Source: Anaerolineae bacterium (GTDB lineage Bacteria; Chloroflexota; Anaerolineae; Anaerolineales; E44-bin32). Taken from it: a stretch of 38,168 bases of DNA. Every line of letters starts with the position of its first letter. The first letter of the stretch is position 1. The position numbers and the translations under genes were made by a program. Below are positions 7,993 to 37,779 of this stretch, one piece after another. The notes under the pieces are model-generated. The model did no database searches. It was not told the DNA's origin and saw only the letters and a list, made by a program, of their open reading frames with translations. The stretch is from NCBI GenBank assembly GCA_030605795.1, contig JAUWHR010000090.1, forward strand, positions 1 through 38,168, given 5' to 3'.

Positions 7993-10148
7993 CGTCGCAC
8001 CCATAAAATCGCCAAGGATAGCAAAGCAAACAGCGTAGTCCCGCACCCAAGGAAAACGGTCTTGGGTTGAAAGCTGAACACCACTTCATGATCGCCTGAA
8101 AGAAGCGTTACACCCCGCAGAAGGTTATCAACCAGATGCCCCTCGGTCTGAATACCGTCGACTGAAATCATCCACCCTGGGTAATCCACTTCGCTCAGCA
8201 CCAACAAACCCGGACCTCGCGCGTGAATCGTAATCCGGTTCGGCGTCCAGTCCACCGATTCAACCGGCCTCCAACTGCTCGACGGTTCTCCGGATAGCTC
8301 CTCGACCCAGGCACGAGGCCGAGCCATTTCATTGCGGTAGACATAGACACCCTCAAGCCTATCCTGAAGGTGGATCCCCGGTGTATCAACCGGATACTCA
8401 GAGACGATGTATCCGATATTTAGCCGCCCCAACATAGCCGGCTCCAGATCAACCCCCCATGGTCGATCTGGCTCGCCAGAGGGAAAAGGTGGCAGAGTCA
8501 CGCTGTAATTATCCGGCGAGAAGCCGGTGGAAGAAGCCATATAATCGCGATAGGCTTTTAATTGAAGAGGGTTTACACCATCCGCCATCTCTAAACTTTT
8601 CTGCACCGCTGTCGCATATGGCAGGCTGTACGATGGGGAATACAATCTCCATGTTCCCACCTCTCCCGCCAGCGATTCTGCCAACACAGCCCGTTCATCA
8701 AGTGATGTACTGCTGGGACGCACCTCCAGCAATTGAGTATCGATCCACATCAAATCTACTATTACCAGTAATACCCAACCCAGCGCGATGATATTTCTCG
8801 GTAACCGGTGAGCGAACGATAGCAGAGCCCAAAGTGCGGTTAGAAACGCCAAGACATAACCCCCGAGCATAAGTGCTGATATTGTCCTGGTTAAAGACCA
8901 AATACCACTGATCAGTAGGATAACGGCGGACATAAGCCCAATGACGGCGAGTCTAATTTTTTTTACCTCAGGCGGATCGTGGTCGCCCGTAAGGACCCAA
9001 TCCAGGCCACGCCCAGCCATAACCGCCGCGCCAAATGAAGCCATGAAAAGGATCCGTGGCGGCACACGTAGCAAGCCCGACCCCGGGATGATTTTTGTAA
9101 ATAGAGCATAAAGTGGCGTTTGATCGCCTAATGAAAGAAGCCATGCTCCGACTATGATTGCCGACCAAAAGCCGGCTTCAGGCGCTCGTATCAGCACAGC
9201 CATGAACGCCAAGCAACACACCGTCATGCCGAGATAGACCATCCACTCCGGTTGAGAGACTTGGGGAAGAATCACGCCGAGGATTTGTGACCCGGGGAGT
9301 GAAAGCGTCGTCTGATCTCCAATTGATATACTCCATCGGGTTGAGAGCGGTAGAAACTCAAGTAGAGGCAATGCCAGGCACGCTACCATTGCCGACGCGC
9401 TGGTTCCAGTAACCGCACCAGCCTTCAACAATCGGCGCCATGCTGGCCATGACCAATTACCCCCCTGCTCTCTATGAATATAAACAGCACGTCGAAGTCC
9501 ATATACCAGAGCCAACAGCCCTGCTGGCAACGCCCAGCGAGGGTCCGCCAGGGCAACTACGCCCAAAGTAACCCCGGTCAACGCACTCCACCGCAGCCAT
9601 CCACCGCTCCTACCGCACACCTCATCCACCATCCGACGGGTGGTTAACACGACCCATGGGGTCCAACTGACGGCACAGACTAGACCCAAATGCCCCAACC
9701 CGATGTGGGCTAAGAATTTAGGCGTCCCGCTGAAAGCCAGAGCAGCAATCCATCCTCCGACCAACCCAACCCCCTCCGTCCTCATCAGACGCCTGGTGCC
9801 CCAAGCCGCCCATGCCAGATGGAGCCAGAAAAGCAGATTGAACGCCAGACTTATTGGTATCACCAATGTCAACCAATTCGGTGGATACCAAAGACCAGAG
9901 AGAGGATCCGCAGCGAAAGGACCGCCGCCAAGAGTAGTTGGATTCCATAACGGAATCTGACCCCACTTGAAAATAGACTGCCGTAGAAAGAAAGCATTGG
10001 GCCAATGGGAAATGAGTAGATCGGAGTAGCTAGCCCCACGCCAGAACGGGAAGCCGTCGGGATCGGGAATAAGCAGCGCCAACAATAAAGTTGGGATCAG
10101 AAGTGTGAGGAGTGAATCGAGTAATCGACGGCGTAAACGGACAGTCAT
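7989..10148 (-). CDS. YfhO-like polytopic membrane protein (copy 1 of module B)
   Basis: A protein of 719 residues. The N-terminal loop has LISHWPNAFFLRQ, then IPLWNPTTLGGGPFAADPLS and LWYPPNWL, the YfhO-family signature. Many membrane helices follow, then a C-terminal beta-rich domain with VLSEVDYPGWMISVDG and HEVVFSFQP. The start ATG at 10148 overlaps the stop of the upstream gene by four bases and its own stop overlaps the next start by four bases. The three genes are therefore almost certainly translationally coupled. Substrate unknown; surface glycan or lipid glycosylation is the family-level expectation. Confidence 0.8.
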   Translation of the reverse strand: MTVRLRRRLLDSLLTLLIPTLLLALLIPDPDGFPFWRGASYSDLLISHWPNAFFLRQSIFKWGQIPLWNPTTLGGGPFAADPLSGLWYPPNWLTLVIPISLAFNLLFWLHLAWAAWGTRRLMRTEGVGLVGGWIAALAFSGTPKFLAHIGLGHLGLVCAVSWTPWVVLTTRRMVDEVCGRSGGWLRWSALTGVTLGVVALADPRWALPAGLLALVYGLRRAVYIHREQGGNWSWPAWRRLLKAGAVTGTSASAMVACLALPLLEFLPLSTRWSISIGDQTTLSLPGSQILGVILPQVSQPEWMVYLGMTVCCLAFMAVLIRAPEAGFWSAIIVGAWLLSLGDQTPLYALFTKIIPGSGLLRVPPRILFMASFGAAVMAGRGLDWVLTGDHDPPEVKKIRLAVIGLMSAVILLISGIWSLTRTISALMLGGYVLAFLTALWALLSFAHRLPRNIIALGWVLLVIVDLMWIDTQLLEVRPSSTSLDERAVLAESLAGEVGTWRLYSPSYSLPYATAVQKSLEMADGVNPLQLKAYRDYMASSTGFSPDNYSVTLPPFPSGEPDRPWGVDLEPAMLGRLNIGYIVSEYPVDTPGIHLQDRLEGVYVYRNEMARPRAWVEELSGEPSSSWRPVESVDWTPNRITIHARGPGLLVLSEVDYPGWMISVDGIQTEGHLVDNLLRGVTLLSGDHEVVFSFQPKTVFLGCGTTLFALLSLAILWVRR

Positions 10149-11722
10149 GGCATGACCGCCTGGTAGATCTCAACATTGCCAGATTGAAAAACAAGGGGTA
10201 ACCCTTCAAGCCATGTTGGTCGACCAAGCGCTCGTTCACGCTGGCCATAGAAGATAAGGTCAACACTCTGATTGGACAGCAGGCGCCTTCCATCCTCGAT
10301 CGAACCATCCCAGGCGTAGATCGACTCGACTAAGGCTTTCTGGGTATCAGCGTCTGGCGTCTCAAAGGGGTGACCATAAAGCACTCTCACGTCGGCAAAT
10401 ACAGGAAGTCTATTGCCAGTGTCCGGGGCGGCCAAGACCAGTGCTTGTCGTGGCGCATGCTCCCCCAACCATTGGTAGGCATCAAGCTCGTCTTGGAGGT
10501 GGACTACAGCCGGCTCACCAATCCGAACACCTGAAAGACCTGCGCTTACAACGATCAAATTGGAGGGGACAGATAGGATGAGAACTACGACAAATACTAT
10601 TCTTAACCAAGAACGAGATCGAACAAGCCTTTCGAGGCCCAACGCAGCTAAGCCGGCCAAGGGAAAGAACAGGCCCAGCGTCAACCTTCGTTGCAAACTA
10701 AAGGGGGCATAGAGCAAGATCCCATTACTGACGACCCAGGCCAGCAGTAAACGACCCCCAGGTTGACGGGGTGGCCAAATCGCTGCGGCGCCGGCAATAC
10801 CCAAAATGAGGATCAAACCATACCCGAAGATATAGTTCAACAGGGGGGGAGATGGGGTAATATTTTGAGCTGTCCAAGCCGCCAGCACCGGATGGGTCCA
10901 GGTGAGCCAGAGGTCGTAAATCAACCAGGGTAAAGTACCGACCATAAGGGCCAAGGTAGATAGAAGGCGCGGGCGCTGATTAGACCATAGTGAGGCCACT
11001 CCACTTCTCCAGCCCTGCGAATGTAATTCCCAGGCCAGCCAAACTAAAAGAGTTACCATTAAACTCACGACGGAGAAGGGCAGCACAGCCCCAAGGAGAT
11101 TCCCACAAATAAAAGCAGCCAGAAGACGCAGTCCCAAGCGCCCATTGCCTAACACCGATAGTACGCCGCCTAGGATAGCCGCTGCCGCAAGCGGGAAGTG
11201 AGCATTGGTATAAGCCGTGAGGAATGGGATCGACTCAGGGATCAGTAGGTCGCTAGCCTGAATACCGAAGGGAATTGCAAGCCACCCTAGACCGGAACCG
11301 AACAGGGTGAGGAGAAAGGCAATCCATGTCACCCGACTTTCCGACAGCGTCCGTTTAAAAAAAATGAACGCCAGCATAAACATGACCACCGCTGCCAGGA
11401 ACCGAGCCACGTGATAGACGGTCAGCAATGGTAGACCGAGCCAACTTGCCACATGTCCCAGGAACAAGTAATAAACGTACACAAAAGTTCCCGGACCAGG
11501 CTCAGGGGCATACGGCAAGTGAAAGAGCCATGATCCATCAGCACCCTGACGCATCTTCGCCAGATAGCTAAATCCGTCCATTGGATTGATCAAGAATCCA
11601 TTAAAAACCGCTGGTTTGTCTAGTCTACTTGCTAGAAGGTATGGAGCCAATGCAGCCCCAGCCACAGCCAGGCACAGTACAAGCGCTGAAATCCATTCAA
11701 CCCGGTTCTTCATCGATTGCAT
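10145..11722 (-). CDS. Polytopic GT-C-like membrane protein (copy 1 of module A)
   Basis: A 525-residue protein with about a dozen helices, paralogous to the gene at 6400-7992 (shared DG-SYLAKM and WLFH/RTPY loops and a common soluble tail ending EIYQAV). It is the first gene of the seven-gene minus-strand operon. The start is ATG at 11722 or the nearby ATG at 11713. Neither has a clear Shine-Dalgarno, and a TAAAAT box sits immediately upstream of the second, so a leaderless start is possible. It diverges from the zinc-ribbon gene across 72 bases. Confidence 0.65.
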   Translation of the reverse strand: MQSMKNRVEWISALVLCLAVAGAALAPYLLASRLDKPAVFNGFLINPMDGFSYLAKMRQGADGSWLFHLPYAPEPGPGTFVYVYYLFLGHVASWLGLPLLTVYHVARFLAAVVMFMLAFIFFKRTLSESRVTWIAFLLTLFGSGLGWLAIPFGIQASDLLIPESIPFLTAYTNAHFPLAAAAILGGVLSVLGNGRLGLRLLAAFICGNLLGAVLPFSVVSLMVTLLVWLAWELHSQGWRSGVASLWSNQRPRLLSTLALMVGTLPWLIYDLWLTWTHPVLAAWTAQNITPSPPLLNYIFGYGLILILGIAGAAAIWPPRQPGGRLLLAWVVSNGILLYAPFSLQRRLTLGLFFPLAGLAALGLERLVRSRSWLRIVFVVVLILSVPSNLIVVSAGLSGVRIGEPAVVHLQDELDAYQWLGEHAPRQALVLAAPDTGNRLPVFADVRVLYGHPFETPDADTQKALVESIYAWDGSIEDGRRLLSNQSVDLIFYGQRERALGRPTWLEGLPLVFQSGNVEIYQAVMP

Positions 11723-12496: not shown

Positions 12497-12502
12497 CCGT
12501 TG

Positions 12503-14938
12503 ATGCTAGATTTTTTAACTGGGATCTTTGGATATCGCTTCGATTGGCCGGAACTCTTCGCCGGCATGCTCGTCGGGGTCGTATTGGCTTGGGCTCTGGC
12601 TCGTATGCGTCCAATCCTCAACTGGCTCATGGAGTTTTTCCGAAAACAGGCAAGGGTCGTTGGCGAACGTTTGGCAACCGCCTCCACCAACCGTTACCAA
12701 GTGGAATTGCTCACTCGGGCGCAAACGATGCACTTGGCAAATCCGATCTTCGTCCTCGACGAGGTAGTCATCCCACCTCACCTGCTTGCCCCTCCCCAAC
12801 CCGCTGACCCTCAGCAGGAAGAACCCGCGCCTGAAGACACGCTCTCCGTGGTGCCCAACCTTCCTGATTGGACTTACTTGTCGGGGGTGTATAGCGCCCC
12901 AACGATTTCTCTCGCCGATGCGTTGTCCAACGGCGCGAACTTGATGATCACCGGACCACCTGGGAGCGGCAAAACAACCGCATTAGCTTATTTGATGATT
13001 CGATGTCTCCTCAAAGAGCCTGAGGCTGGAATAACAGCCGAGTTGGTGCCAGTGCTGATCAATGCCACAGACCTGAAAATAGACCGACGCTCCGAGAAGG
13101 ATCCTCTCAATCCTCTGATCGCAGCTGCCCAACGAACAGTCTCTTCGGGACTGGCTTCTCGCCTTCCTGGCTACCTGCGGCCGCAATTTCGACAAAGCCG
13201 TGCTCTGCTTCTGCTGGATGGTCTGGACCAAATGACACCGGAGGAGTTATCCCCCATCGCCGATTGGCTCAACCACCTACAAAAGGATTTTCCTGGCAAC
13301 CGCATCGTAGCTGCTGGACCTGTCTTTGGCTATGACGGGATATCTCAGGCTGGGTTGACCCCAGTGTCGATCGCGCCCTGGTCTGAGCACGATCAGCGCT
13401 CATTTCTCTCCCGCTGGGCGGTATCCTGGATGCAGTACGTCGTCCCGACCCTTCCCAAGAAACGCATCGGGGACCTCGACCCGGCGTTGATCACCGGCTG
13501 GTTGATCGGTGTGATACGCGGTTTAACCCCGCTGGAACTCACGCTGCGCACATGGGCAGCATATGCCGGTGATATACGGGGTGCAAGAGCGGTCGACAGC
13601 TTAGAGGCCTATATCACCCGTCTCCTTTCGCGCAATGAGCTCCAACCAGCCGAAGCGGCTGCGTTGACCTGGATCAACGAACGCCAGGGATCTGTCGCTG
13701 AGCGAGCTCTGCGACGTGGCACCCCGGTGGACAATCTGGTAGAAGCCGGGATCCTGGTACGGCGCGAAGGGAAAACGATGACCTTTACCCATCCCTCGGT
13801 AGGGTCCTACTTGGCGGCGCGAGCGATGACCGAAATAGGTCTTTCGGAAGCAGCCATGCAAGCCGGTTGGGGACCAGCCGAAACAGCGATGGGTTACTTT
13901 GCAGCCATGGGGGATGTCACTGAGGTGGTTACAGACTATCTAAAGGAATCTGACGATCCCTTAGAATTAAACCTGTTGACCTGTGCGCGTTGGATGTGGG
14001 AGGCTCCAGCCAAGTCGCCGTGGAAGGCTCAATTGTTACGGGCGCTGGCAACCGTCGCCAGCGAACAGGAAAGGTCCTACGGCCTGCGATTGCGAACGGT
14101 ACACGCGTTAGCGAAAACCAATGAACCATCGATGGCTATTCTATTTCGTCGATTACTGGGTTCTGATGAGCTCAGCAGCCGGGTACTTGGAGCGCTTGGA
14201 CTTGGCGGATTAGCCGACGAGGAATCGATCGAAATACTACTGGACACCGTAAATCAGGATCGCAGCCTACACGTCCGACAGGCAGCGTGTCTGGCGTTAG
14301 CGGCGATTGGCACCGAACCCGCCCTGGAGGGATTGGGAAGAGTCCTTCTGGAAGGCGACGAAGCCGTGCGATTGGCAGCCGCCGAATCGCTCGCAATCCA
14401 TCCAGACGAGGGATACAGTATGCTGCGAGATGCCAGTGAACACGAAAACCTGCTGACCCGTCGCGCGGCAGTCTTCGGTTTGTCTCGCGTCCCAGAGGAT
14501 TGGGCATTAGACATCCTGGACCGGATGCAGATTGATGACGATCAGTGGGTAGTGCGTGGTGCGGCCGCAGAGAAAGTTGATCGTCGCCGGGACCCGCCAT
14601 GGAAGGTCTATCCTCAAGTTCAAGAAATATCAGAATTACCATGGCTGATTGAATTCGCCGCTCAAGAGGGTCTAGGTGTCGTACCTGGTCATGCTTCGCT
14701 AGAGATGCTCAGACGCGCCATCACTAAGGGAAAACCGGAGGAAAAAATCGCCGCCCTGGAGGCTATTGTTTGGGCTGGCACAGAGGAACTTGGACTTGAG
14801 TTATACCAAGCCCTGTATGCTTCAGAACCCTACCTGCGCGATGCCGCCTTCGAAGCGCTTTGGCGATTAAGGGCGGCTGGTATTGAATTACTTCCACCGG
14901 ATCAATACGGTTTAGAGCAAACAATTCCCCCATCCTGA
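12503..14938 (+). CDS. Membrane-anchored NACHT-type STAND NTPase with C-terminal HEAT repeats
   Basis: About 811 residues. One membrane helix near residues 18-36 is followed by a proline-rich linker, then the NTPase core: Walker A GPPGSGKTT near residue 152 and Walker B LLLLDGLDQM near residue 236, a NACHT-like D-G-x-D arrangement. A helical region follows, and residues about 540-690 hold repeated HEAT-like units (for example EAVRLAAAESLA, HVRQAACLALAAIG). Architecture fits STAND signalling ATPases, many of which work in defence or signalling. No effector domain is visible, so the membrane helix may be the output. The start is ATG 12503 or TTG 12500, both served by AGGA upstream. The last 53 codons recur as a remnant at 28727. 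Confidence 0.8.
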   Translation: MLDFLTGIFGYRFDWPELFAGMLVGVVLAWALARMRPILNWLMEFFRKQARVVGERLATASTNRYQVELLTRAQTMHLANPIFVLDEVVIPPHLLAPPQPADPQQEEPAPEDTLSVVPNLPDWTYLSGVYSAPTISLADALSNGANLMITGPPGSGKTTALAYLMIRCLLKEPEAGITAELVPVLINATDLKIDRRSEKDPLNPLIAAAQRTVSSGLASRLPGYLRPQFRQSRALLLLDGLDQMTPEELSPIADWLNHLQKDFPGNRIVAAGPVFGYDGISQAGLTPVSIAPWSEHDQRSFLSRWAVSWMQYVVPTLPKKRIGDLDPALITGWLIGVIRGLTPLELTLRTWAAYAGDIRGARAVDSLEAYITRLLSRNELQPAEAAALTWINERQGSVAERALRRGTPVDNLVEAGILVRREGKTMTFTHPSVGSYLAARAMTEIGLSEAAMQAGWGPAETAMGYFAAMGDVTEVVTDYLKESDDPLELNLLTCARWMWEAPAKSPWKAQLLRALATVASEQERSYGLRLRTVHALAKTNEPSMAILFRRLLGSDELSSRVLGALGLGGLADEESIEILLDTVNQDRSLHVRQAACLALAAIGTEPALEGLGRVLLEGDEAVRLAAAESLAIHPDEGYSMLRDASEHENLLTRRAAVFGLSRVPEDWALDILDRMQIDDDQWVVRGAAAEKVDRRRDPPWKVYPQVQEISELPWLIEFAAQEGLGVVPGHASLEMLRRAITKGKPEEKIAALEAIVWAGTEELGLELYQALYASEPYLRDAAFEALWRLRAAGIELLPPDQYGLEQTIPPS

Positions 14939-15188: not shown

Positions 15189-16214
15189 TCAATCGCTTCG
15201 AGGGATAGGCTTTCCCATCACATAATCCCATAAGCAATCGTGAATGGCAATTTTGGTGCATGCGATTGGGATATAGATGAAAGCATTCTGTTCTCCAAAT
15301 TCAGCAAGCTTGGCGCGGAAATTGGGCATTCTTGAATGAACCAGACTTCCGAGAACTGCAGGGACGAATTGAAAAGGAAGCCTTATCTGATATCGCAGGA
15401 AGCTAATCTGAAGATGGATTTTCTCATCTTCACGACCCGGAATAACAACACCAATATCAGGATCACCGAACGGATTCTCCGAATTGTCTACCACCAGGAC
15501 GTCATCTGACTCGGGGAATACGAGAATATCAGCATCTCTATAAAGGGATTGAAAAATGTAGTCTCTTACAGGGTTGATTGCTTCTTGGAAAACATATCTA
15601 TAGCCCAGAGAAAAAAAAGCAAGTAGATATGCAGAAGTAATCCACCCTGAACGCGCCAATTCATGTTTTACACGCCTGTAGGGGTGGATCATCAGTGGAA
15701 ATTTCTCGCCAGCATCTACGAGCGAGCGAAACCGTGTTTCTTCTTTTGGGTTATTCCGAGCCCACTGCCTACGTTGCCTATCAATCTCGAAAGTGATTTT
15801 TCCTCTTACTACATCCTCTTGACGCAGAGTAAGCTTGGCTTGTATTTTGATAGGCTCTTCACCGGGACCTCTTGTTACAAGTACTATCCTTTCACCAAAA
15901 AGCTCGCCAGTTTCCTCTCCCTCCCGTAGCTTCTCAAATTCCTGAGCGTGCTTATCGCCTCGGCTCCCAGCAGTTGAATTGCACTTGTTGCACAATAGCA
16001 CATGTTGGTGATTTGCTAAGTCTCCCTGACCACGTTCTCGAATCACTGAAGGCCATACATGGGCAATAGACAATAAAGCATTATTAATATCTGCGAGATG
16101 GAATGCCCCGAAGCATATAGGACAGACAAAGTAACTCTCAAGCCCTGGGAATACAGATGACAGGTCCTGAGAATGGGAATTGAAGAGGCGTTCAAGGTAA
16201 GTCGCAGAAGGCAC
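15189..16214 (-). CDS. HNH-family nuclease-like protein (cassette gene)
   Basis: A 341-residue protein. The N-terminal 90 residues form an HNH/zinc-finger nuclease module: C31 and C34 (CPIC), AHVWP with H52, LANHQH (68-71), C75 and C78 in LCNKCN, then GSRGDKH. The remaining 250 residues are not recognised and contain one hydrophobic stretch. The start is GTG at 16214, with GAGGGG eight bases upstream. The gene starts about 40 bases after the attC core at 16251 and ends near a degenerate half-site at 15166-15180, so it fills one cassette. A restriction or defence role is plausible but unproven. A homing or generic DNase role is the alternative. Confidence 0.7.
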   Translation of the reverse strand: MPSATYLERLFNSHSQDLSSVFPGLESYFVCPICFGAFHLADINNALLSIAHVWPSVIRERGQGDLANHQHVLLCNKCNSTAGSRGDKHAQEFEKLREGEETGELFGERIVLVTRGPGEEPIKIQAKLTLRQEDVVRGKITFEIDRQRRQWARNNPKEETRFRSLVDAGEKFPLMIHPYRRVKHELARSGWITSAYLLAFFSLGYRYVFQEAINPVRDYIFQSLYRDADILVFPESDDVLVVDNSENPFGDPDIGVVIPGREDEKIHLQISFLRYQIRLPFQFVPAVLGSLVHSRMPNFRAKLAEFGEQNAFIYIPIACTKIAIHDCLWDYVMGKPIPRSD

Positions 16215-16250: not shown

Positions 16251-16517
16251 GCCTAACGTTTTGAGCTGAGCGGCCCGATTTCAACCTCGTCATGGAGCTC
16301 AAGCCTTTCACAAATCCGCCTGCTGGCCGGGTCCACGCCAGCGAGAGCCTGTGTAAAAAGCCCAAAATTTTTCGACAACACGGGACAGCGCCACACTTTT
16401 CATGCATATTTTGTTGTATTAAGGGAACTGACTCCCATTTTTAATCACTTTTCGGCGTTTTCCTCCCACCGATTATCTTTTCGCCGACTTTTTACACAGT
16501 CTGGCGAGTGGTTAAGC
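16251..16517 (-). repeat. attC site carrying a 151-bp insert
   Basis: Plus-strand GCCTAAC (16251-16257) and GTTAAGC (16511-16517) are perfect matches to RYYYAAC and GTTRRRY. The inner left motif TTTTGAGCTGAGCGGCC is shared with the other attC sites. It separates the 792-residue fusion gene from the HNH gene. At 267 bp it is too long for its siblings, but removing the MITE-like insert at 16349-16499 leaves 116 bp, in line with them. Confidence 0.7.
16349..16499. mobile_element. MITE-like element with perfect 12-bp terminal inverted repeats
   Basis: CTGTGTAAAAAG (16349-16360) and CTTTTTACACAG (16488-16499) are exact inverted repeats enclosing 151 bp of non-coding sequence. It sits in the loop of an attC. 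No target duplication is obvious. A related end (TTCACACAG followed by TCTGGCAAATGGTTATGC) is at 30263-30289, again inside an attC. Confidence 0.6.
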
Positions 16518-16548: not shown

Positions 16549-18927
16549 TTACTTTTTTAGTGACCAATACATATCGATCTCAGGACCCTCAAGTAATACC
16601 GTTTTATTGCCTCTTCGAATGAAGAATTTGTTACATAGATACTGCTTAGAGTCAGCTGGCTTCACAGTAATTAAGCAGAGGTCCTTTTCTTCTAAGTTTA
16701 GCCTCGAAATCTCAACTAAATCAGCATCTAGCACATAAGGACTTATTCGGTTCTCGATAAAGTTAAGAAGTTTCTGGTAGTAACCATCCCATTCGTCTTT
16801 TCCATATTCGGAATCAACACCATATGCAATCTTGGAGTTAATCATAGGGCAATCCGATAATTTATCCTCGAAAACCTTTTCATATCTCATTTTCTCGAGA
16901 ATACCAACAAGCACATCGCCGCCTTTAGTATTTAGAAATGCAACAATGGTTTTCAAAACACCCTCATCGGGTAGTTCGCTTGATATTTCGAATTTTCCGT
17001 CACCAAGTAGGTATCGATCGATATCAAGTCCTACCGACCCTTTAAACTCCAGTGTTTCGCTCTCCTCTCTATCGATGTAGTAATTTACTCCTTTTCTTCT
17101 CTTTTCAAACCTATCCTCTGATCTTAGTGACTCCTCAAATTTCTCAAGCCAGATGGATCTGAATCCAATATTCGCGTCTCTTATTATCCTTGACAATTCC
17201 AATCTCACTTGGCGGCTCTTCTGACTTGCCCCCCCTGCACCTCGATAGGCATTAATCTTATCCTCGTCAGCGTCTAGTAAGTGAATGATAAGGGGCTCAA
17301 GAAACTTGAAGATTGCTGATCGATAACTTTTAATGCTTTGCAACTCGGACTTAGATAAGTTACATTCAACAATATCCCTAAGAATGCCAGTGAGGACTAC
17401 AAATCCTGCATTTGTACGTATGTAGTGATCATCTCCCGCCTGCCATTCTTCCTCTAATTCCTCTTTGATTAGGTTATAAAAGGCGCAAATACGCTCAGTG
17501 GCAAACTCGATACTTTCTTGATATGTGCCATTAAACAGAAGCCCCTCTCCCTTTGATATTAATTTGTGTCTTTGTATAGTAGTGCACACTGAAGTAAGTG
17601 TCAGATTCCCATCATTTTGCTCTTTAGGGATATAAATCTGATTCCTAAATGGAGATGAATCCAACTGATTTAAATTTTTTGCAATCCTGGAGATAGCATA
17701 AAGCTCAAGTTCTTTATCAACCTTAGAGTCAATATAAAGGTCTTCATATAGATCCCATAGAAGGTTAGCTTCAATGGATTTTTGGTTCTTGTTAATGTCA
17801 ACAAACATCTTTGCCTCAAGGCTGATATCCTCATCAACAAAGGCAACTACCGGTAGAGTCTCAGAAAATTTCTCATGAGTATCTGCATATCCATAAAGAC
17901 GATGTTGACCATCAACGATCCATGCACAGCCGTAATAAGGAGGCAGAGTGATGGCAACTGGGCGCACATTCTGCTTTAATTGTTCTATGTGCTTCTTGTC
18001 ACCTAGGATCTCCTTCTTATGAAGCTTTCTTTGAAAATTAACGATTATTGCTCCAGGAAAGAAACCTCCGTCTTTAATGAAACTCTCAATCTTTCGAAGC
18101 CTAGATTTCTTGAGCATCCTTTGATAACTGTCAGATAATCTTAAAAAACTTGATTCACTTGATCTATGATGAACAAAGGCGATTTTTAATAGATCCTCCG
18201 GAGCAAGTACCAATGTGTAATAGGTATGACCACCCATTTTCGATTCAAGCGCTGGCACTTTTAATTCGAAACCCTTTATCTTCTTCCCAAGAAATATCCG
18301 ATTATAGATTTGATACTTGGCCCCCTCACCTGCAAGATTCGCGAGATCTTGGAGGGCCATAAGATCATATTCATCCCAACATATGAATCCAGCATCATCA
18401 GCATCAATCTTGTCATTGTCAGCCCAAATGATATTTTCAGTAGCAATAATGTGAACGAATTTCAATGAACGAACACCGATTAATCTACGAAGAGAGTTCC
18501 CGATTCTTTTCTTGTTCCCAGATAATTCAGCAATGTCCTTTCGTAAGCTTTTCTTACCAAGCGTCTCCCGTGTTTTACATTCAATAACAAAAACAATGTC
18601 ATCATCAATTGCAAGGACATCGATTTGTTTTGTCTTTTTAACTTTATCAACATCTCTAATTAGGATCGAAAATCCAGCAGACGATATCTTATCGGCACCT
18701 AGTTCAAAAAACAGCATCCATACTTTATCCTCCAGCTGCCTGCTAAGCTTCTTATCCTTGCAAATATGCTTGACTGTCTTGAATTCTCGTAGCAAATTCC
18801 AACCTTCTGGGATTTGACTATCTATCGGTATGGATTTTTTTAGACGGCTCTTTTTCCTTTCTTTATATTCGAAATCTAGCTCATCCTCAGCTAGCAGGGA
18901 ACCTTGGACAAGAACTTTTTCTGCCAT
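16549..18927 (-). CDS. PD-(D/E)xK nuclease - DGQHR (DndB-like) - AlbA_2 fusion protein (cassette gene)
   Basis: A 792-residue, three-part protein. Residues about 65-160: a nuclease-like fold with D103 (QIDVLAID) and E116-x-K118 (VIECKT), matching PD-(D/E)xK. Residues about 230-400: a DGQHR domain with YQRMLKKSRLRKI, FFPGAIIVNF, DGQHR at 339-343 and INKNQKS at 378-384, as in DndB-like and other modification or restriction associated proteins. Residues about 611-792: an AlbA_2/Schlafen-type domain with ETLEFKG near 627 and FLNTKGGDVLVGI near 664. ATG 18927 has AGGAAAGG upstream. It fills the cassette between attC sites 16251-16517 and 18991-19088. The sequence is AT-rich compared with the flanking operons. 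I do not know a characterised protein with this exact order. A defence role is the best inference. Confidence 0.75.
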   Translation of the reverse strand: MAEKVLVQGSLLAEDELDFEYKERKKSRLKKSIPIDSQIPEGWNLLREFKTVKHICKDKKLSRQLEDKVWMLFFELGADKISSAGFSILIRDVDKVKKTKQIDVLAIDDDIVFVIECKTRETLGKKSLRKDIAELSGNKKRIGNSLRRLIGVRSLKFVHIIATENIIWADNDKIDADDAGFICWDEYDLMALQDLANLAGEGAKYQIYNRIFLGKKIKGFELKVPALESKMGGHTYYTLVLAPEDLLKIAFVHHRSSESSFLRLSDSYQRMLKKSRLRKIESFIKDGGFFPGAIIVNFQRKLHKKEILGDKKHIEQLKQNVRPVAITLPPYYGCAWIVDGQHRLYGYADTHEKFSETLPVVAFVDEDISLEAKMFVDINKNQKSIEANLLWDLYEDLYIDSKVDKELELYAISRIAKNLNQLDSSPFRNQIYIPKEQNDGNLTLTSVCTTIQRHKLISKGEGLLFNGTYQESIEFATERICAFYNLIKEELEEEWQAGDDHYIRTNAGFVVLTGILRDIVECNLSKSELQSIKSYRSAIFKFLEPLIIHLLDADEDKINAYRGAGGASQKSRQVRLELSRIIRDANIGFRSIWLEKFEESLRSEDRFEKRRKGVNYYIDREESETLEFKGSVGLDIDRYLLGDGKFEISSELPDEGVLKTIVAFLNTKGGDVLVGILEKMRYEKVFEDKLSDCPMINSKIAYGVDSEYGKDEWDGYYQKLLNFIENRISPYVLDADLVEISRLNLEEKDLCLITVKPADSKQYLCNKFFIRRGNKTVLLEGPEIDMYWSLKK

Positions 18928-18990: not shown

Positions 18991-19088
18991 GCATAACGTC
19001 CTCGAGATGAGCGGCCTGTACTCAACCTCGGCATGGAATTCTAGCCATGCACAAACTCGCCAGAATCTCGGGTCACGAGTGGTTATGT
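18991..19088 (-). repeat. attC site
   Basis: GCATAAC (18991-18997) and GTTATGT (19082-19088) bound 98 bp with the shared inner motif CTCGAGATGAGCGGCC and CTCAACCTCGGCATGG, the latter also seen in the attC at 16251. It lies 50 bases 3' of the AAA ATPase gene and upstream of the 792-residue fusion gene, as expected for a cassette boundary. Confidence 0.7.
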
Positions 19089-19137: not shown

Positions 19138-20433
19138 TCAAGCAACGGACTCGGCCGTCGAATTCTTCTCAATCGAGGTTTCTAGCACAGATGGATCTGT
19201 GGTGTAGAACTTAATCCAAAGAGCGAAGCCTTTGTGTTGAAGCCGATAAATGCCTCTAGTTCCCTCTTTCGAGAGAATGATATACCTATCGCGCAAAGCT
19301 TTAATGGCATTGGATAGAGTGGAATCCTTACCCTTGAATTTGGCTCGGATATTCTTCTTAGATACCCAGTCATCAAGATTGTCAGCCATGATGCGAAGGA
19401 CTTGTCGGTAGCTATCCTTCTGAATCTTGTTGTAAAAGTTATCCCGATAATAGCGGTCACCAATGAGCTCGAGGGCGCCTCCTACTCCCAATGCTCCTTG
19501 GACTACATCATCGCGATCAATAAGATCATCTTGATCAGCTGCAAATGCTGAATAACCAAATTGCTGGATGAAGTGATGATAACCTTCTGAGAACGCCACC
19601 AAAAAATAACGGGCTTCATCATTGATCTGGGTTTGCTCTTCATTGTCCTCGTTCGCTTTTTCTATATACCTATCTATTACCTGGATGACTTCGTCATTGG
19701 TAAGCCGCCCCAACTCGAGGTGTTCGAATAGCCTAAGAGAAGACGGATGGCTCTCTCTGAGCACATTTCGCAATTCTGACAGACCAACTAACCCGACCAT
19801 TACTCTATCGCATCCTCGCCTTTGCAACCGCTCCAATAGCAACTTAAAGAATGACCCAAGATCGAGGGCTCTAGAGGCGTTGTCAGCCTCATCGATTAGT
19901 ATCAGAACACCATTGTAGTGCGCATTAAAAAGCTCCATACCCTGGATTTGGCTACATACTCTTTCGACAGTTTCCGCCAAAGAATAAGCAAATCTCTCAA
20001 GCAATGTTTCATCGGGCTTGGAACCGTCAGCTGGGCTTATTCGAAATCCGCTTACCTCAAGACGCTGGAGAAAAGACCAGGTGTCAGATAAGAATTTTCT
20101 CGCCTTCTCTGAATTACCCAATTCCTTCTCTAGCCCCAGCTCTATTTTCTTTACGAGCCCCAATTGGGTTGTATTCTGATCAATGTCGGTATCTATAACC
20201 AAGAAATTGAATTCGTTTTCATTGACGGGGATCTCTCCCCTCGCTACAAAGCCCAGGTAATTCATGATTGATGACTTACCAATGCCTCTTTCACCGGTAA
20301 TGAGGAAATTTGAGGGTTGCCCGGACCTCGTCTGGAATAAATACGATTCGAGCCTTAATATTTCATTCAGCCGACCTACAAACATCCCGGGGTTGACAGG
20401 GTAATTCGGATTGAATGGGTTAATTTTTGGCAT
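19138..20433 (-). CDS. AAA/ORC-CDC6-like ATPase with C-terminal winged helix (cassette gene)
   Basis: A 431-residue ATPase. Near the N-terminus come NPFNPNYPVNPGMFVGR, then Walker A GERGIGKSS (47-55) and Walker B VLILIDEAD (176-184), a sensor-like strand (RVMVGLVGLSEL), and a C-terminal winged-helix region around residues 335-400. This is the layout of archaeal-type or Cdc6-like AAA proteins, also used as regulators or defence ATPases paired with nucleases. ATG 20433 has AGGAGA eight bases upstream. An attC follows its stop at 50 bases. A degenerate attC at 20664-20767 may separate it from the next gene pair, giving it its own cassette with a 230-base leader. Confidence 0.75.
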   Translation of the reverse strand: MPKINPFNPNYPVNPGMFVGRLNEILRLESYLFQTRSGQPSNFLITGERGIGKSSIMNYLGFVARGEIPVNENEFNFLVIDTDIDQNTTQLGLVKKIELGLEKELGNSEKARKFLSDTWSFLQRLEVSGFRISPADGSKPDETLLERFAYSLAETVERVCSQIQGMELFNAHYNGVLILIDEADNASRALDLGSFFKLLLERLQRRGCDRVMVGLVGLSELRNVLRESHPSSLRLFEHLELGRLTNDEVIQVIDRYIEKANEDNEEQTQINDEARYFLVAFSEGYHHFIQQFGYSAFAADQDDLIDRDDVVQGALGVGGALELIGDRYYRDNFYNKIQKDSYRQVLRIMADNLDDWVSKKNIRAKFKGKDSTLSNAIKALRDRYIILSKEGTRGIYRLQHKGFALWIKFYTTDPSVLETSIEKNSTAESVA

Positions 20434-22656: not shown

Positions 22657-23075
22657 CTATAGCTCCTCCAGCTCCATCCTCGCGACCGCTACCTCCAGAT
22701 CCCACTCGATTGGTTTGGTGTAACGGGCAGTGCTATCAACCCGTTTAGGACCTATGAGGTGCTTTACCGTCACCAGGTCAACCCCCTTGTCAAGTATGCT
22801 TCGAACGAAGGCGTTCCTTAGAACATGATGGCTGCATCGCGTTTGCTACCATGCATCTGAACCACCCGCAGCAGCCGGTGGTAGAGTCTCTCATCAAGCG
22901 ATCGGGGAGCTCTTGGCAGTTCTCCAAGATTTCGCACTCGAACCGGGTTCTCCTTGATGTGGCCCTCTTGGATGGCCCAGGAGAAGTAAGCCCTAAGCGA
23001 CGACTGGCGCCGGTTTATCGTGTCGAGCTTACTTTGATGAAAGTACATGGCACCCAACTTCGCCAAAGCCACCAA
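22657..23075 (-). pseudogene. Tyrosine recombinase remnant R1, internally deleted
   Basis: Residues of the core-binding domain (KLGAMYFHQS, INRRQSSLRAYFSWAIQEG, ENPVRVRNLG, APRSLDERLYHRLLRVV) read cleanly to RDAAIM. The sequence then jumps into the region that encodes HVLRHTFARS in copy R4, with a frame loss, so the Box I arginine and the catalytic lysine region are deleted. The C-terminal end with ARYTKP remains. The stop is TAG at 22657-22659. It is closest to R4, and homology continues upstream to about 23302. Confidence 0.8.
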
Positions 23076-30229: not shown

Positions 30230-30262
30230 TTTTTCTCTTACTTTTCATCTTTTCATTGAATT

Positions 30263-30289
30263 TTCACACAGTCTGGCAAATGGTTATGC
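30263..30289 (-). repeat. Partial attC with MITE-like end
   Basis: TCTGGCAAATGGTTATGC at 30272-30289 matches TCTGGCGAGTGGTTAAGC of the attC at 16517, and the adjacent TTCACACAG resembles the insert end there. GTTATGC (30283-30289) is the core. It is 17 bases 3' of the 389-residue nuclease gene. The other half of the attC is missing: remnant R2 takes its place. Confidence 0.55.
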
Positions 30290-30305
30290 GGCCTGCAAAA
30301 TTAAA

Positions 30306-31475
30306 TCATTTCGATTTTCCAAATCTAATCCTTTCTATTCTTTCGAGTAGTAAGGACCAAAAAGAAGAATGTTTGTTTTGGAATTCTTTAAGATCAGAGA
30401 GATCCAGGACCACACAAATACTACCGTCTTCGTGAAATGATTTCCGAATAATACTTCTTGCCGATTTTTCGTTTTCCACTGTTCCGGTCACGCCCAGTTT
30501 TGAAAAGATTACTCCAAATCTAACATGCGTAAGTCTCATCCGATAAAGAAAGTATCCTACCTCTTGAACGCCAATCTTCATGTCCCAATTCTTACATTCA
30601 ACAAGAATATGTCTACCAAGAATTTCAACTGTGGGATCGCTTGTTCTTTTCAAGTTCCTAACTACGATATCGGTTTCGAAGGTATTGAATTCATCAAGCA
30701 AGTTCCTTCGTGGACTCCAAGCAGGTATTAGCATAAATAAATACGTTGCTAAATCTTCTAAGATTTCCCCCTTCTCTTTTGAGGATGCATGATCAACATC
30801 GACCAATGAAAGTAATGAGTTGTAATAAGGCAATGAAAGTGGGTATTCCTGAAGTAAGGAGTCTTGGGCAAACAGATGAGATGATTCTGGAGCTTGTAAC
30901 GCGAATTTTATAAGAATATTCTCTGCGTATGCTTCCGGTCTACTCCAGTCTTTTGATGAATTATTTTCAACAATCGTAAGATTGTTCTTAGCAATCTTAT
31001 TAAATAGCTTCAATTCTTCCGAGGCAATTCCAAAAATTGTGACGAGTGCTTGCTTACCAGCCCCTCCCCCTTTTGAATGTCCTCCAAGAATATCGTCTGC
31101 CTGTGTAAGAAGCGCCCATCTTATCGCGGCCCCATTGTCCCCATGTGATAGATACAGTTTGGAAAGATAGTACCCAAGGCCAGCGCGATAGATCCTTTGA
31201 TTATCTTCTCTCTGAATTCTCCCAAATAGATCCCAGGCAGAGAACAACAAAGATTGAGAAGCCGCCAGGTATCCATTTGCTAGGAAGAGATTTGAGACAC
31301 CTCCATATGCATTACAAGCATCCTTAGCTTTATTTAATTCCCTGGGATCGTAATCCTCGCCTGGATTGCAAGCCTCCTCCAGAATTGATCTTGCTTTATC
31401 GAGAAAATCAATTGGATCTAATTCATACTTCCCATATTCATTGAAGATATTTTGAATTCTATCTATTGGTTTCAT
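30306..31475 (-). CDS. Helical-domain plus PD-(D/E)xK nuclease-like protein (cassette gene)
   Basis: A 389-residue protein. Residues 1-230 are helical and TPR-like in look (LANGYLAASQSLLFSAW, GLGYYLSKLYLS). Residues 235-389 form a restriction-endonuclease-like domain: E239 in the first helix, D269 in FETDIVV, and E293-x-K295 in ILVECKNW, followed by a helix-strand pair GVIFSKLG. This is the D...ExK motif of PD-(D/E)xK enzymes of the Mrr/REase-like type. The start is ATG 31475, with AAGGA close upstream. It starts 21 bases from the attC at 31496-31585 and ends 17 bases from an attC core. The target and partner are unknown. Confidence 0.7.
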   Translation of the reverse strand: MKPIDRIQNIFNEYGKYELDPIDFLDKARSILEEACNPGEDYDPRELNKAKDACNAYGGVSNLFLANGYLAASQSLLFSAWDLFGRIQREDNQRIYRAGLGYYLSKLYLSHGDNGAAIRWALLTQADDILGGHSKGGGAGKQALVTIFGIASEELKLFNKIAKNNLTIVENNSSKDWSRPEAYAENILIKFALQAPESSHLFAQDSLLQEYPLSLPYYNSLLSLVDVDHASSKEKGEILEDLATYLFMLIPAWSPRRNLLDEFNTFETDIVVRNLKRTSDPTVEILGRHILVECKNWDMKIGVQEVGYFLYRMRLTHVRFGVIFSKLGVTGTVENEKSARSIIRKSFHEDGSICVVLDLSDLKEFQNKHSSFWSLLLERIERIRFGKSK

Positions 31476-31495: not shown

Positions 31496-31585
31496 GCATA
31501 ACGGCTCCGGGCTGAGCGGCCCGGCAAGACTCCGAGCGAAATCAAAGCCGGTAGCGCACCAGGCCCGCTCAGCCTGATGTTGGGC
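31496..31585 (-). repeat. attC site, the most symmetric in the window
   Basis: GCATAAC (31496-31502) and GTTGGGC (31579-31585) bound 90 bp. The inner arms GGGCTGAGCGGCC and GGCCCGCTCAGCC are inverted repeats offset by a few unpaired bases, the expected attC hairpin. It lies between the 218-residue and 389-residue genes. Confidence 0.8.
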
Positions 31586-32329: not shown

Positions 32330-32453
32330 GCCTAACGGTCGTGAGCTGAGCAGCCGTGGTTCAAACCTTATATTGCTCTCCGAGCATCCCTATCATATAA
32401 CCTGGACTAGATTTCACCCAGCATCCCCGGTCGCCCCCTACGAGAGGTTAGGC
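32330..32453 (-). repeat. attC site with perfect core sites
   Basis: GCCTAAC (32330-32336) and GTTAGGC (32447-32453) are perfect consensus and reverse complements of one another. The inner motif GTGAGCTGAGCAGCC is shared. At 124 bp it is the longest uninterrupted site. It lies 10 bases 3' of the 175-residue gene. Confidence 0.75.
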
Positions 32454-33208: not shown

Positions 33209-33617
33209 TCAGATCTCCTCCATCTCCAGCCGTCGTACTGCGACTTTCAGATCCTGTTTACTTGGCTGAGTGTAACGGGCGGTGCTATCAATCCGCTTAT
33301 GACCCATAAGTTACTGGACTGTCACCAGGTCAACCCCCTTGTCAAGTAGGCTTCGAGCGAAAGTATGCCTCAAGACATGAAGGCTCACACTGTCAACGTT
33401 TGACAAACGAGCATACCTTTTTAACGACGTCATAAACGGCCGCGTCGGTCAGGCCGTTTCCTCGCTGGCCTATGAACACGTGCAGGTCATCGATCTCCAG
33501 CCCCTCGGCAAAATACGCCTGAAGCACCCGACGGGCATCCAGGTTGAGGGGGATCTCTCAGTATCGGTGTCATTTGCCTGAGCGGATAATCACCTTGCCC
33601 TGTCACCTGGCCATCTC
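33209..33617 (-). pseudogene. Tyrosine recombinase remnant R3, catalytic half
   Basis: Covers the region from before the catalytic lysine to the end. Recognisable in copy order are GKVIIRSGK, EIPLNLDARRVLQAYFAE, HVFIGQRGNGLTDAAVYDVVKK. Nonsense codons are present at 33558-33560 and 33570-33572 and a one-base length change around the T-run near 33420 breaks the frame, after which the Box II region is damaged. The stop is TGA at 33209-33211. The TGA at 33558 is in the same codon as one in R4. Confidence 0.75.
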
Positions 33618-37056: not shown

Positions 37057-37779
37057 CTATACATCCTCCAACTCCAGCCGCTCGACCGCGACTTCGAGAT
37101 CCCGCTCGCTTGGTTTTGTGTAACGGGCAGTGCTATCAATCCGCTTATGGCTTATAAATTGCTGGACTGTCACCAGATCAACCCCCTTGTCAAGCAGGCT
37201 TCGGGCGAAGGTGTGCCTCAAGACATGTGGGCTCACCTGGTCAACGTTTGACAAACGAGCATACTTTTTTACGACGTCATAAACGGCCGCGTCGGTCAGG
37301 CCGTTTCCTCGCTGGCCTATGAACACGTGCGGGTCATCGACCTCCGGCCGCTCGGCAAAATACGCCTGAAGCACCCAACGGGCATCCAGGTTGAGGGTGA
37401 TCTCTCAGTATCCGCGTCCTTTGCCTGAGTGGACGATCACCTTGCCCTTACGCTTAGACATCTCAATATCTGAGGGCTAAAGTCTGCACAGCTCACCAAC
37501 CCGCAAACCCGTGTGGCGCAGCAATTGGATGATGACTGCATCGCGTTTGCCATCATGCATCCGAACCACCCGCAGCAGCCGGTAGTAGAGTCTCTCATCA
37601 AGCGATCGGGGAGCTCTTGGCGGTTCTCCAAGATTTCGCACTCGAACCGAGTTCTCCTTGACGAGACCCTCTTGGATGGCCAAGGAGAAGTAAGTCCTAA
37701 GCGACGACTGGCGCCGGTATATCGTGGCGGGTTTGCTTCGATGAAAGTACCTGGCACCCAACTTCACCAAAGCCACCAA
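37057..37779 (-). pseudogene. Tyrosine recombinase R4, most complete copy, broken by two nonsense codons
   Basis: One continuous frame of about 240 codons with only two in-frame stops, TAG at 37477-37479 and TGA at 37405-37407. Visible parts: core-binding domain (INRR-like IYRRQSSLRTYF), Box I arginine in TGLRVGELC, lysine region HSGKGRGY, HVLRHTF (H-x-x-R), ISHKRI and tyrosine in ARYTKP, all the catalytic positions of a tyrosine recombinase. There is no IntI-type additional segment between Box I and Box II. The first 40 or so residues expected for the family are missing or lie behind stops. It is minus strand, like the cassettes. Confidence 0.85.

Follow-up and report, generated by a model that had tools for sequence, protein, structure and literature searches.

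For GmrSD and DndB-like proteins, DGQHR and DUF262 domains have been proposed as readers of DNA modification (PMC4619093), and DndB, in which the DGQHR motif is present, regulates phosphorothioation in Salmonella (PMC4507180). A ParB-HEPN (Swt1) fusion, Saro_3948, was listed in 2013 (Anantharaman 2013, PMC3710099). HEPN and Schlafen RNases have been proposed as backup suicide effectors in restriction-modification-like systems (PMC3710099, PMC12839542), including, for Schlafen RNases, a backup role in BREX loci (PMC12839542). Finally, integrons are known to house anti-phage genes, and the defence systems they carry tend toward reduced size (2025 review, PMC12409362).

Here we describe a 792-aa protein encoded on the minus strand (16549..18927, ATG start) of the window, that is, the whole stretch of 38,168 nucleotides analysed, a contig from an Anaerolineae bacterium. 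It represents a rare form of a restriction-linked protein that is widespread in bacteria, with a Schlafen tail in place of the usual RNA-cutting HEPN tail. An earlier note on this DNA had read the domain order as PD-(D/E)xK - DGQHR - AlbA_2. Profile matches and modelled folds bear this out, with a ParB/Srx-like central part, a nuclease fold at the N-terminus and an AlbA-like fold at the C-terminus. Structure prediction of both ends thus gave neither of the two outcomes that the note had named as refuting it, a missing nuclease fold or a C-terminus unlike AlbA. The three-domain architecture is well supported; the function is one that we infer.

The N-terminal PD-(D/E)xK domain (residues 4-211; 18295..18918, minus strand) is matched by sequence profiles at sub-threshold level only (NERD, Hjc and Card1_endonuc, residues 83-132), and its identification comes from an AlphaFold2 model. 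This model, built from a 59-row alignment, is confident for the core up to about residue 606, and over the nuclease domain mostly consists of blocks with pLDDT > 90. Structure comparison aligns the domain with AF1548 (1y88; Z 12.4, rmsd 2.2, 118 aligned) and with the Card1, Can2 and Cdn1 nucleases (Z 9-10). The nuclease motif D103...E116-x-K118 (18574..18621, minus strand), already singled out in the earlier note, is well conserved among the 59 aligned proteins: D103 is found in 58, E116 in 55 and K118 in 50, and all three together in 49. Both the core fold and the D...(D/E)xK motif that define the PD-(D/E)xK superfamily are therefore present, and the domain is a predicted DNase of the Card1/Can2/AF1548 type.

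The central DGQHR module (residues 222-521; 17365..18264, minus strand) is recognised by TIGR03187 (E 4.9e-41, 141.3 bits against a curated cut-off of 58.85, residues 226-519), and the DGQHR motif itself (residues 339-343; 17899..17913, minus strand) is invariant in 59 of 59 aligned proteins. The model of residues 228-384 matches the ParB/Noc N-domain (Noc 7ng0, Z 8.0; ParB 7bnr, Z 7.9). Nucleotide binding is a property of ParB-fold proteins, and Noc/ParB CTP structures are among the fold matches of the module, which by analogy may bind a nucleotide too. The DndB family PF14072 also matches the protein (E 1.5e-12, above the gathering score), and a link of this part to DndB had been suggested before. 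One alternative account would make the protein a regulator rather than an effector, either a DndB-like nucleotide-sensitive repressor or an accessory of some modification system; DndB, with its DGQHR motif, regulates phosphorothioation in Salmonella (PMC4507180). We hold this to be very improbable, given that the protein scores 22 bits with the DndB equivalog TIGR03233, whose cut-off is 328, that no other Dnd genes occur among the scanned neighbours, and that two further nuclease-type domains share the 792-aa chain. The DpdB equivalog NF041060 likewise stays below its cut-off (77.7 bits against 300), and Dpd genes are equally absent from the scanned neighbours. On the TIGR03233 score and the lack of other Dnd hits among the scanned neighbours, an identification of the protein as DndB was ruled out, and the suggested link is not upheld.

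The C-terminal SLFN_AlbA_2 domain (residues 622-778; 16594..17064, minus strand) matches PF04326 with an E value of 1.4e-11 (45.4 bits against a gathering score of 25.3). An initial model of this end suffered from an alignment in which HEPN rows were mixed with AlbA_2 rows. Remodelled on a domain-only alignment with other AlbA_2 domains, it reached a mean pLDDT of 77.6 and a pTM of 0.78, and matched DIP2311 (3lmm; Z 12.0), the DNA-binding/tRNase domain of SAMD9 (Z about 11, 10.9) and SLFN5, SLFN11, SLFN13 and SLFN14 (Z about 9), against Z <= 4.5 for unrelated folds. The Schlafen segment matched by the model is the C-lobe, which bears the E205/E210/D248 triad of rSLFN13 (PMC5862951). By alignment only, E622, E627 and E678 (16894..17064, minus strand) fall on these three positions and form a putative acidic triad whose third residue is E, not D; E678 also aligns to a D of other AlbA_2 domains. 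At the same positions, the two AlbA_2 relatives described below have E/E/E and E/D/E, the D belonging to L025. Some AlbA_2 domains bind nucleic acid without cleaving it, and the earlier note had envisaged just this role when it described cleavage, sensing and binding as joined in a single gene. The fusion stands, but the domain is probably more than a binder: its modelled Schlafen/SAMD9-type RNase fold, together with acidic residues at the triad positions, marks it as a candidate RNase with a putative triad, one that probably cuts RNA.

A genome-wide scan returned 170 relatives, of which the best 80 were kept. Bacteria and archaea commonly carry the nuclease-DGQHR core with a HEPN tail: of the 57 full-length relatives lacking AlbA_2, 56 have an RX4-6H motif within their final 110 residues (about 20/57 in shuffles), and Pfam HEPN_Swt1 is called in 19 of 59 rows. 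The window protein has no R-x(3-6)-H motif in residues 561-792, where AlbA_2 is found instead. Among the best 80 of 170, the AlbA_2 end is kept in two relatives only, with identical domain order and from other phyla: L023, from Aminicenantes, is 56% identical to the window protein over 792 residues without a gap, while L025, from Fidelibacterota/Neomarinimicrobiota (8989-11339), is frameshifted into two ORFs (8989-10101 and 10185-11339). In Chloroflexota, the window protein was the sole AlbA_2 member among 301 genomes at E 1e-6. The previous impression that this domain order was uncharacterised thus holds for the Schlafen C-terminal effector, which is new, and fails for the core, which with a HEPN tail is common. 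Sequence searches returned no relative of solved structure for the core profile or for the C-terminus.

In a core tree, a quick one with SH-aLRT support only and a midpoint root, all three AlbA_2 proteins fall together in a single starred clade (SH-aLRT 99), itself nested in a starred group of 11, the other members of which are archaeal, CPR and WOR-3 proteins with HEPN ends. Since the AlbA_2 proteins are a single clade among HEPN-ended ones, the simplest account is that the C-terminal RNase was exchanged once, HEPN for Schlafen, a direction that the midpoint root leaves unproven. If this reading holds, the exchange of RNase folds in one slot would suggest that the slot is an effector position. 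An origin of the AlbA_2 form in phages or plasmids was considered and rejected: a scan with a two-member profile found no relative on viral contigs, and the C-terminal 185 aa had no relative on plasmids. The core profile matches 10 viral contigs.

The neighbourhoods of the relatives connect the family to restriction. Next to the family gene, 49 of 86 loci have a gene for a D12 (Dam-type) N6-adenine methylase, on the same strand in every case and mostly with an overlap of a few bases; these proportions are not a census, since the loci represent the best 80 of 170 by score. Tight, mostly overlapping operons of a HEPN-ended DGQHR nuclease and D12 are seen in L029, L034-L044 and L055-L100. Three more of the 86 loci have an MT-A70 methylase instead, and DpnII is present in L042, L075 and L092, accompanied in L042, and by clustering in L075, by a second methylase in the classic two-methylase arrangement. 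A radical SAM gene is found in 15 of the 86 loci, nine of which also have a GHKL ATPase. The two form a cluster beside the large DGQHR gene in L020 (8347-12616), L021 (8482-12705), L033 (11423-14620) and L072 (11358-15533), joined in plasmid pNL1 (L020), an Agrobacterium plasmid (L021) and L072 by a small DGQHR gene; this cluster is possibly an undescribed nucleic-acid modification system. In the filamentous Pseudomonas phage PfAC19 (L022, 2974-3978), a DGQHR-domain gene adjoins a repressor gene. Eighteen of the 86 loci, including the three AlbA_2 loci, have none of these partners.

No D12 methylase was found among the scanned neighbours of the window gene or in its genome (80.8% complete). 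With no methylase beside the AlbA_2 members and no D12 in the host, the restriction link of the AlbA_2 form is one drawn from its relatives. A missing methylase was rejected as a mark of this form, as the nearest HEPN-ended proteins also have no D12 neighbour. A PD-Lambda-1 defence gene (E 3e-179) lies upstream of the closest AlbA_2 relative, that of L023, with its end about 520 bp away. A gene without an accompanying methylase also suits a type IV-like restriction enzyme, in which the DGQHR module would read modified or unmodified DNA, as proposed for the DGQHR/DUF262 readers of GmrSD and DndB-like proteins (PMC4619093), the well-conserved D103/E116/K118 site would be the sole nuclease, and AlbA_2, with its imperfect Schlafen-type triad, would merely grip nucleic acid. 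This account is unlikely, though to be taken seriously: in the relatives the position of AlbA_2 is taken by a HEPN domain, and 56 of 57 retain the HEPN catalytic motif, a sign that the slot is for an RNase enzyme; the fold modelled for AlbA_2, moreover, matches the Schlafen lobe in which the RNase resides.

The gene had also been assigned to a mobile cassette, and it does lie between two attC-like sites that share its strand (19088-18991 and 16517-16251). The upstream site (18991..19088, minus strand; R'' ACATAAC, R' GTTATGC at 18997-18991) ends 64 nt before the ATG. The downstream site (16251..16517, minus strand; R'' GCTTAAC, R' GTTAGGC) begins some 30 nt beyond the stop codon and is split by a MITE-like insert read from the sequence (16349..16499, minus strand), with terminal inverted repeats CTGTGTAAAAAG. 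A second copy of the insert end lies at 30247-30270, beside an R''-like box near 30290, and elements with the same ends appear to occupy a similar place in attC-like sites of the window and of L014, as if targeting them. Matches to the boxes and pattern place two further sites in the array of the gene (31496..31585 and, with GCCTAAC / GTTAGGC, 32330..32453, both minus strand). The consensus half-site, a pattern derived from these very sites, matches 6 places across the genome, 4 of which share one strand of this contig, against none for the reversed control, and with <= 3 mismatches gives 3 sites in the window against 0.04 expected. As single-strand folding of the sites was not clearly better than that of shuffles, the attC assignment is founded on boxes, repetition and position. 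This arrangement, an ORF between attC-like sites in a common orientation, is that of an integron gene cassette. Since no integron integrase (TIGR02249) scored over the cut-off in the genome, 80.8% complete, the setting is best called a cassette cluster without an integrase.

Neighbouring cassette genes, both on the minus strand, encode an AAA_16 ATPase of 431 aa (19138..20433; PF13191, E 5.6e-12) and a weakly HNH-like protein of 341 aa (15189..16214; HNH_5, E 0.07, below the cut-off). A cassette-like ORF at 30306-31475, directly after the attC-like site 31496-31585, has a weak Mrr-type PD-(D/E)xK match (E 0.0047), and an 812-aa NACHT/AAA protein with HEAT repeats is encoded on the opposite strand (12500-14938). 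Similar tyrosine recombinase relics, several with stops, lie among the cassettes at 22711-22839, 33263-33430 and 37105-37572. Such broken recombinases, the MITE-like insert inside the downstream site and the lack of an integrase over the cut-off would all suit a decaying passenger in a graveyard of gene cassettes, functionless in its present host. We find this improbable for a gene whose 792-aa frame is intact, which shows gap-free 56% identity to a gene of another phylum and which keeps most of its catalytic residues.

Three domains with modelled folds, most active-site residues kept, kinship with the HEPN-tailed family and an attC-flanked position are direct results. Our reading of them, about evenly balanced against all other accounts, is a defence effector that stands alone, is borne on a cassette and descends from a restriction-linked DNase-ParB-HEPN family. 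The DGQHR/ParB-fold module would bind a nucleotide and probably scan DNA or clamp onto it. On meeting foreign or wrongly modified DNA, its presumed trigger, it would license both effector domains: the Card1/Can2-like domain would then cut or nick DNA and the Schlafen-type domain would cleave RNA, with tRNA the likeliest target, thereby blocking infection or shutting down the cell. That a DNase and an RNase-type domain flank the sensor, and that most relatives have an adenine methylase next to them, favours a sensor-gated dual effector, which would both attack DNA and shut off translation. Against it stand the absence of a methylase beside AlbA_2 members, the imperfect triad, a possibly binding-only AlbA_2 and the frameshift in one of the three members (L025). 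More tentatively, and with the balance somewhat against it, the DNase-ParB core may serve as the sensor in a widespread but undescribed family of defence proteins with an exchangeable C-terminal RNase slot (Swt1-HEPN or Schlafen), usually accompanied by a Dam/DpnII-type adenine methylase. This would be a restriction system that carries its own RNA-cutting suicide arm, and the Schlafen form found in the cassette would act alone, without a methylase. If true, one polypeptide would unite attack on DNA and on RNA with nucleotide-gated sensing, and one RNase fold would have been swapped for an unrelated one at an identical slot, a testable case of restriction coupled to abortive infection. The gene would, in addition, be unusually large for a single-gene defence cassette when set against the size-reduced systems of integrons (PMC12409362).

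A search of the openly accessible literature found no description of the Schlafen version or of the D12/DpnII link. Comparison with known systems delimits what the window protein adds. Like DndB and DpdB, it has a DGQHR domain with a ParB-like fold, but it falls far below their equivalog cut-offs, is fused to two nuclease-type domains and has no Dnd or Dpd genes among its scanned neighbours. With Card1 and Can2 (CARF-PD-(D/E)xK) it shares the nuclease domain fold (Z 9-10), whereas no CARF sensor is recognised in it and a ParB/DGQHR module takes the sensor place. It resembles the Schlafen/SAMD9 RNases (SLFN13, SAMD9) in the modelled catalytic-lobe fold and in the acidic residues at aligned triad positions; in contrast to them, its AlbA_2 is a single C-terminal lobe on a DNase-ParB core, with E as third triad residue and no helicase part. 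The pNL1 protein of L020, homologous to it over residues 7-600 at 30% identity, is probably the Saro_3948-type ParB-HEPN fusion. Proteins of that type share its DGQHR/ParB-fold core, N-terminal region, C-terminal RNase-type domain and a restriction-modification context in the family, whereas the window protein ends in a Schlafen-type AlbA_2 and has no methylase or radical SAM partner. The ParB-HEPN fusion was already known (PMC3710099); the novelty of the window protein lies in the swap of its C-terminal effector.
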